Assembly: GCF_900176435.1 (NCBI RefSeq)
Contig: NZ_FWYE01000001.1
Location: forward strand, 1 to 64,000
Source: Picrophilus oshimae DSM 9789
GTDB taxonomy: Archaea; Thermoplasmatota; Thermoplasmata; Thermoplasmatales; Thermoplasmataceae
DNA: 64,000 nt
Direction of reading: 5' to 3'
Shown here one piece after another: positions 53,676 to 57,021 of the stretch; position 1 is the stretch's first letter, and the number at the start of each line of letters is the position of its first letter. Below the pieces are notes generated by a model. It was not told the origin of the DNA and ran no database searches. It saw nothing but the letters and a program-made list of their open reading frames with translations. The position numbers and the translations under genes were made by a program.

Positions 53676-54235
53676 TGAAGCACGGAATAAGAGTCCTTGG
53701 TATTGATGACGGCCCGTTCATAAAGAACAGTGATAAAAGAACCGTTATCACGGGCGTTATTTTAAAATCAAACCTTTATATTGAGGGCATATCAATAAAA
53801 TACATAGATGTGGACGGCTCTGATGCCGAGGATGTTATAATATCCATGATAAAAGGCCGTTTTAAAAATGAGATAAGCGCGGTCATGACCGATGGAATAA
53901 CCTTTGGTGGTTTTAACATTGTTGATATAAAAAATATAAATGAGGCCACGGGTGTGCCTGTAATATCAATAACAAGAAGGGAGCCAAACATACAAAGGAT
54001 AATATCTGCTGTTTCAAGGTACTTCCCTGAGAAGGTTGACCGGGCATTAAAGGCCCTTTCAAATGGGCCGGTAAGGCTTGATAATATTTATATAAACTCT
54101 GCCGGAATCTCATTGACTGAAGCAGGGATCTTAATAAGGAGATTTACGTTCATGGGCAGGCTGCCAGAGCCTGTAAGGCTGGCCCATATAATATCCACGG
54201 CGATAATAAGGGGTGAAAGCCACGGCCGTGCCTAG
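53675..54235 (+). CDS. DUF99 family protein (endonuclease V-like fold)
   Basis: 186 residues from the ATG at 53675, overlapping the prs stop by one base; a TTG at 53672 is also in frame. [25 protein letters not shown] and [12 protein letters not shown] match UPF0215/DUF99, which has an RNase H-like endonuclease V-type fold. Activity unknown. The 3' end overlaps the convergent ATPase gene by 4 bases. Confidence 0.8.
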
Positions 54236-55842
54236 ATGGTTAATTTTATGATCTCCCGGTTCTTTACCAGTATGCACTCAGAGTAATTATTGTTATTTCC
54301 GCCTGCCAGACCAGAGCAGTCAATTGTCATGTTCATCAGTTCTATTTTCTCCTTCTGCCTGAACAAAAATATATTATCGCTGTTGTTTACTATTGAGAAT
54401 CTTTTTGAAAAATCTGAAAAGTTCTGGCTTATATTTATAATTGATGTGCTGTAGTGCCTTGCATTTCTTATTAAATTATCAACAGCTTTTATCTCTGATT
54501 TTATAATATTGTATGCCTCGTCTATTATTATAATCTTTTTGCCAGATCTGTCCCTGCATAGATCTTCGAGATAATTTAATATATTATTTAATAGTTCATC
54601 GTTTATATTATATCCTGTTTTTATTATATTTATATGATTGTAACTTTTTGATAAACCTTTTATATCATTCACGGCAAAGACAGCAGAACCATCAAAATGG
54701 TATTCATCGAGAGGATCTATTATATAAATAAATGCACTGTTTTTATAGTATTCTATGAACCTTGATGCAAGGAATGTTTTCCCTGAACCTGTTTGCCCGG
54801 CTATGATTGTATTATATGATATGCCATTAAAAACGTCAAGGAAAAATGGCCTGTTGTTTAATTTGTCCGTGCCTATTAAAACCCCGGAACCCTTTGAAAT
54901 ATTATTTGGTATAATTGATGCAAGGCTTATCGAATCCATCATGTATCTATATGGTATATAATTAGGTGAGACCGATCTTTTATTGTAATAATCAAGATTT
55001 TTAATATTAAATCCAAGCCTTTCCATAACATTCTTAAATTTATCGGAGTTTTTCCTTAGATCCAGTGGATCCCTGCCGGAAACAATAAACTTTAATGAAA
55101 CGTCGAAGATTTTATTATCTGAATTTATAAAATTGTTTAAATCATTGATCTGCCTGGATATAATACCATGGTGCCTTAACCTTTTAAGCTCGGCCTTCCT
55201 TGTTACAAGCATTTTTTTAATCGTGTCTTTTTCAACGGGAACGGCATTTATAAAGATCTCAACAGGTATGTTCAATGAATATATAAAAGATGCATAGAGC
55301 AGGTCGCTGCCGTAGTTTGCATCATATAAATAAAATACAGATCTGTAACTGTCATTTACATAATACCGCCTTTTAATAAGATCTGGGGATCTAATTTTTA
55401 TGCTTTTTTCCTGTAATATTTTAAATGAGCTGATCTTTTTAAGATCGTCCTTACGCAGGCCAATTATTAACCTGTAATAATAGCTATCGCCATCAATGTA
55501 TGGCTCTAGGATAAATGATATGCAGTCAATAGTGTTCAGCTCCCTTGAGATCTCAATGAACTTTTCATTCTTGTCAATGTTATAGAATGAGTTATTGTAT
55601 TCAATATAAAAATATAAAAGATCATTATTTTCTGTTCTTGATATAATTACCGAGATTAATTTCCTGCTCTTTAGTAAAAATATTATTATCAAAAATATGG
55701 CCAGTCCTGGTATTAAAAGATTCACACTTATTGATACCATGAAGATCAAAAGGCACAATGAAAGGAATAAAATGATAAAATCCTGGGCATCTAGTCTAAA
55801 TATTTTCAGTTTAAAATTATGGACATTTACAGGTATCCTCAT
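54232..55842 (-). CDS. VirB4/HerA-like membrane ATPase (CedB-like)
   Basis: 536 residues. Two hydrophobic helices near the N-terminus (about 22-60), a middle domain with VirB4-type features (residues about 100-340), Walker A GQTGSGKT at 349-356, Walker B IIIIDEA at about 437-443, and a later ISQNFSDF segment. The [21 protein letters not shown] block before Walker A is typical of the VirB4/HerA branch. It is the third gene of an ATGA-linked operon with a polytopic membrane protein and a small two-helix protein, the layout of archaeal DNA-import (Ced/Ted) genes. Its direction (import or secretion) is not shown by sequence. Confidence 0.75.
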
Positions 55843-56711
55843 CTTCCCGCCATGTAATCATTAAATGGTTCATCACCTGAGACGTTATTTAAATCAACAG
55901 GTATTCTATCCTCGATATAATCAATTAAAGAATAATAATTATAATCCATGATCGATGCGTCCATGCCAAAAAGCGATGCTTGCCTTAAAAAGCCTGAAAT
56001 CGTTCTAAAAAGAAGGCCTGGCAGTATAAATGAGGCGTAGATAAAACCAATCTGTAATGGCAGATCACCTGGAAAGAATCGCATTAGATACAGTGAGAGT
56101 ATTGTTAAAACAGGCATTAATGACAGCTCTGTGACTATCTTTATTATCCTTGTAAAATATTTCTCCGCACCAGGAAACAGAATGAAAATTGGCGATACTG
56201 GCATTATAAAGGCCATGATTATTAGAATTGCCTGTCTTACAACAAGCGAAAATGCCAGTATTACTATACCTGTAAAATAGGAACCATTTAAAAACAGAAG
56301 TGTTAAACCTGAGTATCCTGAGATTTTTGATGCATTAAATATTGAATACCAGTCAGTGCCGTTCCATAGATACATGAATATATATTTTGATATTATCAAT
56401 ATATAATGAAAGATCATGTATGATGATATTATTAGTATAACAGATATTATATACCTCATGACCTGACCTGTAACCTTTTTTGATATGCCAAGTGAGTAGT
56501 AAAATAAATAGATAATAGACGATATTATTATTGATATCGAAAAGAGATCATAGTATATATTGTATATTGAACTTAAAAATTCAACGTATCTGCCTGATAT
56601 TATAATATCATATGACATCTTTGGGTTTAAGCCATAGTAAACCATTAAATACCATGCGCCGGCCAGTGATGATCTTAGTATATTATCTATAATATTTATT
56701 ATCGATGTCAT
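55839..56711 (-). CDS. Polytopic membrane protein (VirB6/CedA-like)
   Basis: 290 residues with about 6 hydrophobic helices and a polar C-terminal tail (about 245-290). Unlike carriers it has no conserved loops I recognise; the size, the helix spacing and its place between a small two-helix protein and a VirB4-like ATPase suggest the VirB6/CedA channel component. Start ATG at 56709-56711 overlaps the previous gene; its end overlaps the ATPase start. Confidence 0.6.
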   Translation of the reverse strand: MTSIINIIDNILRSSLAGAWYLMVYYGLNPKMSYDIIISGRYVEFLSSIYNIYYDLFSISIIISSIIYLFYYSLGISKKVTGQVMRYIISVILIISSYMIFHYILIISKYIFMYLWNGTDWYSIFNASKISGYSGLTLLFLNGSYFTGIVILAFSLVVRQAILIIMAFIMPVSPIFILFPGAEKYFTRIIKIVTELSLMPVLTILSLYLMRFFPGDLPLQIGFIYASFILPGLLFRTISGFLRQASLFGMDASIMDYNYYSLIDYIEDRIPVDLNNVSGDEPFNDYMAGR

Positions 56712-56959
56712 GGCCTCCCAGTGACAATGTACATGAATATTATGTATATTGTTCCGGTGGCTGCCATTAAATATATTATTGTCCCTATTGCAGCATTCTT
56801 TAATCTCTGCATTGCCTTATATTTAATATTCTCATCGTCTGTAAAAAACGATACCGCAACAGGTATCCATAGCAGAGATATTATTACTGCCGATGCCGAG
56901 ACCACGATGTATTTAATTCTGTCAAGAATTAAAACAATGGTATCATAATCAATCAGCAT
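56708..56959 (-). CDS. Small two-helix membrane protein (VirB2/CedA1-like candidate pilin)
   Basis: 83 residues with two hydrophobic segments (about 17-35 and 58-78) separated by a polar, charged loop (TDDENIKYKAMQRLKNA). This is the VirB2/TrbC pilin and CedA1-type topology. It is the first gene of the three-gene operon. The similarity is structural, not a motif match. Confidence 0.55.
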   Translation of the reverse strand: MLIDYDTIVLILDRIKYIVVSASAVIISLLWIPVAVSFFTDDENIKYKAMQRLKNAAIGTIIYLMAATGTIYIIFMYIVTGRP

Positions 56960-57021
56960 AAACGTTTATGTATATGTTATATAATTTACTTTTTGTAAAA
57001 TATAAAATTTATATAAAATTT

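Follow-up and report, generated by a model that had tools for sequence, protein, structure and literature searches.

A conserved three-gene type IV secretion operon in the chromosome of Picrophilus oshimae, most likely serving DNA exchange between cells

Three overlapping genes in Picrophilus oshimae DSM 9789 raise the question of whether Thermoplasmata possess a small DNA-transfer apparatus comparable to the Ced and Ted systems of other archaea, and of what such an apparatus would do for its host. The genes lie in a 64,000-nucleotide stretch of DNA (positions 1 to 64,000 of contig NZ_FWYE01000001.1; hereafter the window), in a genome of 1,534,155 bases in six contigs. An earlier note on the window, made from its letters, had compared them to the Ced/Ted machinery. 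The features of the locus are as follows.

56708..56959, minus strand: gene for the predicted VirB2-type (T4SS) pilin, 83 aa (Pfam PF18895), with two hydrophobic helices flanking a conserved charged loop
55839..56711, minus strand: gene for the VirB6-like polytopic membrane protein, 290 aa (predicted fold); its start lies within the pilin stop (ATGA)
54232..55842, minus strand: gene for the VirB4-family ATPase, 536 aa (TraC/VirB4 models); its start lies within the VirB6 stop (ATGA)
55642..55785, minus strand: two-helix membrane hairpin at the VirB4 N-terminus, about residues 20–67 (hydropathy scan; helices from residues 22 and 49)
54775..54798, minus strand: Walker A motif GQTGSGKT, VirB4 residues 349–356
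54514..54534, minus strand: Walker B motif IIIIDEA, VirB4 residues 437–443
56960..57021, minus strand: AT-rich intergenic stretch of 62 bases, 5' of the pilin gene, with TATA-like motifs by eye; likely the promoter region

The three genes occupy 56959–54232 on the minus strand, and both junctions are four-base overlaps (TCAT on the plus strand, ATGA on the minus strand), as the earlier note had described. Its two-helix reading of the 83-residue protein agreed with the hydropathy scan, and the two N-terminal helices, the Walker A motif, and the IIIIDEA motif of the ATPase were all recovered. The operon is bordered by housekeeping genes, with Endo_dU and PRPP synthase genes on one side and a DUF1059 gene on the other (Pfam); past these immediate neighbors are ORFs that we take to be carA/carB-like. 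The note had also reported that no relaxase or coupling protein adjoins the operon, and inspection of the window neighbors, from which the absence of a relaxase was judged, led to the same result.

The sequence comparisons indicate that the ATPase is of the VirB4/TraC type. It matched the models of TraC (E = 1.2e-14), Mbov_0397 VirB4 (9.6e-14), and CD1110 VirB4 (3.2e-11), in every case with scores far under the curated cut-offs, and the VirB4 structure 4ag5 in the PDB (E = 1e-4). Among 29 ATPase homologs, the TraC model matched 29, CD1110 28 (best 6.7e-62), Mbov_0397 27, and VirB4_CagE 24, while the CedB model matched 22 (best 9.2e-11), the CedD model 11, and the HerA models four, one, and one. 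Four Walker A residues (G349, G352, G354, and K355) and E442 of Walker B are invariant in these homologs. When an extended VirB4 profile was used, CD1110 VirB4 from bacteria and two proteins from haloarchaeal plasmids scored 200–307 bits, nine CedB-group proteins 64–106 bits, and three HerA proteins 37–44 bits. In two trees of the ATPase domain, all sampled Thermoplasmata proteins fell into one clade with bacterial and haloarchaeal VirB4 (support 98/93 and 100/98), apart from CedB and HerA. In the second tree, from which 12 rows of the first were left out (long branches and near-duplicates) and to which four were added, the separate CedB clade had support of 98/95. The Thermoplasmata proteins within the VirB4 clade did not form one group, and more than one acquisition is therefore possible. 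At many loci of the same family, the N-terminal part of VirB4 is encoded by a gene of its own, about 230 aa long. The hairpin in the window protein is possibly a fused VirB3/PrgI-like anchor. The Pfam PrgI model reached no better than E = 0.18, in one relative in family f13; when the additional small genes in the relatives were screened for partners such as VirB3/PrgI and VirB8, Pfam gave no convincing match.

No Pfam or NCBIfam model matched the 290-residue protein, and no fitting Pfam model was found for its homologs, among which there were two stray single-member hits. The earlier note had counted about six helices; the protein is indeed polytopic, but the number was five in the hydropathy scan and seven in the AF2 model (pLDDT 82.4, pTM 0.73). 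Alignment of the predicted structure with solved ones gave VirB6 of R388 (7o3v) as the top row in VIA-align, with 220 aligned, an rmsd of 4.7, and Z 11.2, a value within the range (under about 13) where Z may reflect an arrangement common to helical bundles. The next rows were 8rt9 and 8rtd (R388 VirB6; Z 10.7) and Legionella DotA (Z 9.7), so that solved VirB6/DotA structures are the four best by Z among the 736 chains aligned, followed by a designed repeat (9.3). Foldseek also ranked R388 VirB6 first, weakly (E = 0.16). The alignments for structure prediction comprised 28 chosen homologs each for the pilin and the VirB6-like protein, and profile searches of the PDB with queries A1 and A2 returned chance matches alone and no match, respectively. 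Since T4SS pore proteins took the first four places and the gene position agrees, we find the assignment of a VirB6 fold to the predicted model persuasive.

The 83-residue protein is assigned as a VirB2-type pilin on the basis of its sequence family. It matched Pfam PF18895 (T4SS_pilin), which served as the VirB2 profile in PMC12102498, with E = 8.3e-5 and 23 bits, under the cut-off of 26.6, and was the single match in the window genome. The same model matched 27 of the 28 pilin homologs scanned (E ≤ 0.1; best 9.9e-8), whose alignment contains 14 invariant columns, and gave matches in 49 of 61 genomes, over the cut-off in 11 of those 49. No N-terminal signal sequence was seen by eye in the window pilin; by the same inspection, the pilins of families f3, f4, f5, and f13 apparently have a signal peptide. 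The AF2 model of the pilin is a single long helix (pTM 0.40) with no PDB match, and the pilin structure was thus left out of the argument.

Some relatives carry larger pilin arrangements. In genome G040 of family f5 (L237 and L058), four to five pilin-like domains stand in a row 5' of VirB6 and VirB4, several of them as C-terminal parts of larger proteins that contain regions rich in Gly, Ser, and Trp. At four f13 loci (L332, L335, L337, and L349), large ORFs of 534–1825 aa, some with membrane helices, lie directly 5' of the pilin gene; these are candidate tip or adhesion proteins, some possibly being spurious long ORFs. Among viral contigs there was a single hit, in the IMG/VR contig L350, with a weak likeness to the pilin (38% over 39 residues).

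The gene order is widely conserved, as a comparison with relatives suggested by the earlier note showed. ATPase homologs were found in 35 of 36 genomes of the same genus or family, and in 32 of the 35 same-family (f1) loci the pilin, VirB6, and VirB4 genes follow one another in this order on one strand. Two of the exceptions (L036 and L052) are at contig ends, and the third (L044, from a 300-contig assembly) has no VirB6 match in the 2.7 kb upstream. The trio is also present in order in 6/6 loci of f3, 4/4 loci of f5 (three genomes), 1/2 of f4, and 11 of 13 f13 loci chosen because a pilin was present; for both f13 exceptions the contigs end first. The pilin profile detected one copy each in 48 of 50 same-family genomes that are at least 80% complete. 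The distribution in the class is patchy (122 of 300 genomes, with 12 of 28 in the order's other families and 62 in f13), and at the phylum level (95 of 395 genomes) there were just two marginal matches outside the class. The dN/dS values against the same-genus genome G001 were 0.06 for the pilin, 0.09 for VirB6, and 0.14 for VirB4, which are rough because dS is 1.0–1.8, near saturation, but which point to purifying selection. Together with the conserved order, this selection indicates that the operon is not a chance arrangement. In most same-family loci (L022–L055), a small two-helix gene (63–152 aa) is convergent with the VirB4 end; it is absent there in the window.

Elsewhere in the window genome (G000), contig C5 encodes the genome's own HerA (HerA model, 7e-67), adjoined by ORFs that are presumably NurA-like and Mre11-like. 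No PF00437 ATPase, the type associated with type IV pili, archaella, and secretion, was found in this genome, so that the window operon is the only pilus machine found there. PF00437 was absent in six of 41 genomes (G000, G001, which is 59% complete, G010, G014, G019, and G020), all of which have VirB4. Contig C5 of the window genome also carries, at 80683-81837 (L063, L192), a 385-aa membrane ATPase that belongs to the VirB4/VirD4/HerA superfamily and has two helices at its N-terminus. At E ≤ 1e-30, homologs of this protein were found in 19 of the 61 genomes, with several copies in some, and this patchy, multi-copy occurrence makes it look mobile-element-borne. It is probably carried by mobile elements and could act as a coupling protein. 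In f3, VirB4 is directly followed by an FtsK/HerA-superfamily ATPase of 679–700 aa. At four f3 loci (L236, L238, L242, and L243), where this ATPase has 677–694 aa, a gene of about 200–250 aa also follows VirB4, and the L057 copy of it gave a weak GINS/Sld5 match; the ATPase and this gene possibly constitute a coupling module.

We consider the operon to be a conserved chromosomal minimal T4SS that most likely serves DNA exchange between cells, with a probability of about 0.62. The pilin would insert unprocessed in the membrane and polymerize as a pilus of the conjugation type. At the base of this pilus the VirB6-like protein would provide a membrane pore, and VirB4, held by its membrane hairpin, would drive pilus assembly and/or the passage of the substrate. 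We infer that the apparatus, like Ced, would most likely pass ssDNA from cell to cell within the population of its host, in the direction of import and for use in recombination, and that the ssDNA would be produced by the unlinked HerA-NurA-Mre11 machinery and not by a relaxase. The possession of its own HerA with NurA- and Mre11-like neighbors counts for this reading. So does the high homologous recombination reported for Ferroplasma populations (PMC2704941).

The strongest alternative keeps the same chromosomal T4SS but gives it a task other than DNA exchange: it would act as a contact pilus or deliver proteins, for example within biofilms or where cells meet other archaea. The operon contains no gene for DNA processing or coupling, adhesion would be a useful function in a genome where it is the sole pilus machinery found, and families f5 and f13 include pilins fused to or located beside large proteins. 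The patchy distribution in the class also makes protein secretion or adhesion possible. On the other hand, the closest three-part precedents, Ced and Ted, have been described as importing DNA (PMC9905601), and no recurrent candidate effector gene was found in the 35 family loci, as judged from ORF lengths and helices with most neighbors unannotated. We regard this alternative as unlikely, although it deserves more weight than those that follow.

It is improbable that the operon is a resident or decaying conjugative element (an ICE or integrated plasmid) instead of a host system. Its G+C content is 0.32, compared with 0.37–0.42 across most of the flanks, which mildly favors either a foreign origin or the effect of membrane-protein composition. 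The clustering of the window VirB4 with plasmid VirB4, and the separate 385-aa ATPase with its multi-copy homologs, are in keeping with such an element. Against it stand the single copy in nearly all family genomes, the conserved order, and the purifying selection. In L050, the one relative locus that was annotated, the neighbors are housekeeping genes (thioesterase, DHNA aldolase, NTPase, and tRNA methyltransferase), and ORFs of like size are present at many other loci. A collection of 72,556 plasmid records contained nothing that matched the pilin or VirB6, and the ATPase gave 26 remote matches there (below 27% identity among the 25 matches listed) and none in phage sequences. No integrase, relaxase, or other mobile gene was recognized beside the operon. 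The window locus therefore shows neither the relaxase and linked coupling protein nor the mobile context of a self-transmissible element. The earlier note had held that a mobile-element context with a relaxase nearby would count against its proposal; the neighbors, the conserved order, and the plasmid search all came out otherwise.

The comparison with Ced was the central claim of the earlier note, and only part of it survives: the composition, the chromosomal setting, and the lack of a relaxase are shared, but descent from Ced is not supported. Like Ced of Sulfolobales and relatives, the locus combines a VirB2 pilin, a VirB6 pore, and a VirB4-superfamily ATPase without a relaxase or linked coupling protein; one Thermoproteota genome (L226) has the same order, CedA1-CedA-CedB, and the window pilin is apparently unprocessed, as described for CedA1. 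The profile comparison with CedA1, CedA, and CedB that the note had envisaged nevertheless produced no clear match. The CedB model (NF041017) gave 20.4 and 19.3 bits at the window locus against a cut-off of 700, and because 22 crenarchaeal genomes are also under this cut-off, the tree, in which CedB is apart, carries more weight. The NCBIfam models of CedA1 (NF041797) and CedA (NF041796) did not match the window proteins. In hhalign, the pilin scored 18.7 with CedA1 (shuffled maximum 18.4, n = 30) and VirB6 14.6 with CedA (shuffled maximum 21.2), whereas the positive control, CedA1 with CedA, reached 96.4%; neither window protein was clearly above the shuffled or reversed controls in these profile-profile comparisons, which weak homology could escape. 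Of 44 Thermoproteota genomes, 19 contained CedA1, and in the extracted sets a CedA-like ORF stands next to it; the CedA1 set comprised 16 of the 19 loci (L268–L270 were not caught by the motif) and L226, which repeats L252. The window has one VirB4 in place of CedB and CedD, and its genome lacks a type IV pilus ATPase, whereas Sulfolobales use Ups pili. True orthology to Ced, shared vertically or horizontally with Thermoproteota, thus stands refuted on the present sequence data.

Ted of Thermoproteales (TedC, TedA, and TedB), described as a domesticated T4SS (PMC9905601), has the same three parts, a likeness by description, but its TedC has a cleaved signal peptide, unlike the window pilin. 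PF18895 gave nothing over the cut-off in 25 Thermoproteota genomes (best E 3.6e-4), and four TedB candidates (L359–L362) turned out to be HerA-like, lying beside HerA in the second tree. According to their own authors, Ced and Ted have no recognizable sequence similarity to each other (PMC9905601), so that dissimilar sequence does not rule out similar function. The monoderm conjugation systems (MPF_FATA; CD1110-family VirB4, PrgI, and VirB6) share the VirB4 clade of the window. A Lacticaseibacillus plasmid has PrgI (VirB3) directly 5' of VirB4 together with relaxases (by typing) and a CHAP-domain gene, whereas the window locus has no relaxase beside it; the MPF_FATA class is reported to be without VirB2 pilins (PMC12102498). 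A HerA-type repair helicase beside unrelated membrane proteins, the outcome that the earlier note had set against its own proposal, is refuted in favor of VirB4. A match of DUF87 (the HerA central domain) to the ATPase, just under the cut-off (E = 1.1e-4), speaks for HerA, but HerA models reached at most four of the 29 homologs, the genome has its own HerA, and the partners are assigned as VirB6 and pilin.

A cluster of this kind was already known. CSP5_1185-1189 of Cuniculiplasma, comprising VirB4 (arCOG04034), a multipass protein, and membrane proteins, was listed in 2016 among T4SS components (PMC5155288), and by its description it is very probably the same locus type; the listing gives no function, named pilin, or comparison with Ced. 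VirB4 components in Thermoplasmata are also named in PMC10354927, whose relevant sections make no comparison with Ced, and the searched text of PMC12448462, on Thermoplasmatales pili, contains no term for conjugation or Ced.

The descent of the ATPase argues for a domestication separate from that of Ced. It is an even chance, in our estimation, that this was a third independent domestication in archaea, in which acidophilic Thermoplasmata fixed a monoderm-type VirB4 with a pilin and a pore for DNA exchange; in lineages like that of the window, without a type IV pilus or archaellum motor, the apparatus would perform both cell contact and transfer. If this is true, conjugation machinery was domesticated more than once, here in another archaeal phylum and from a different VirB4 lineage, yielding a very small T4SS of three genes. 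Such an apparatus would also give a mechanism by which Ferroplasma populations in nature recombine as strongly as has been seen (PMC2704941). The retention of the same set in related archaea suggests that they use it for DNA exchange of their own.
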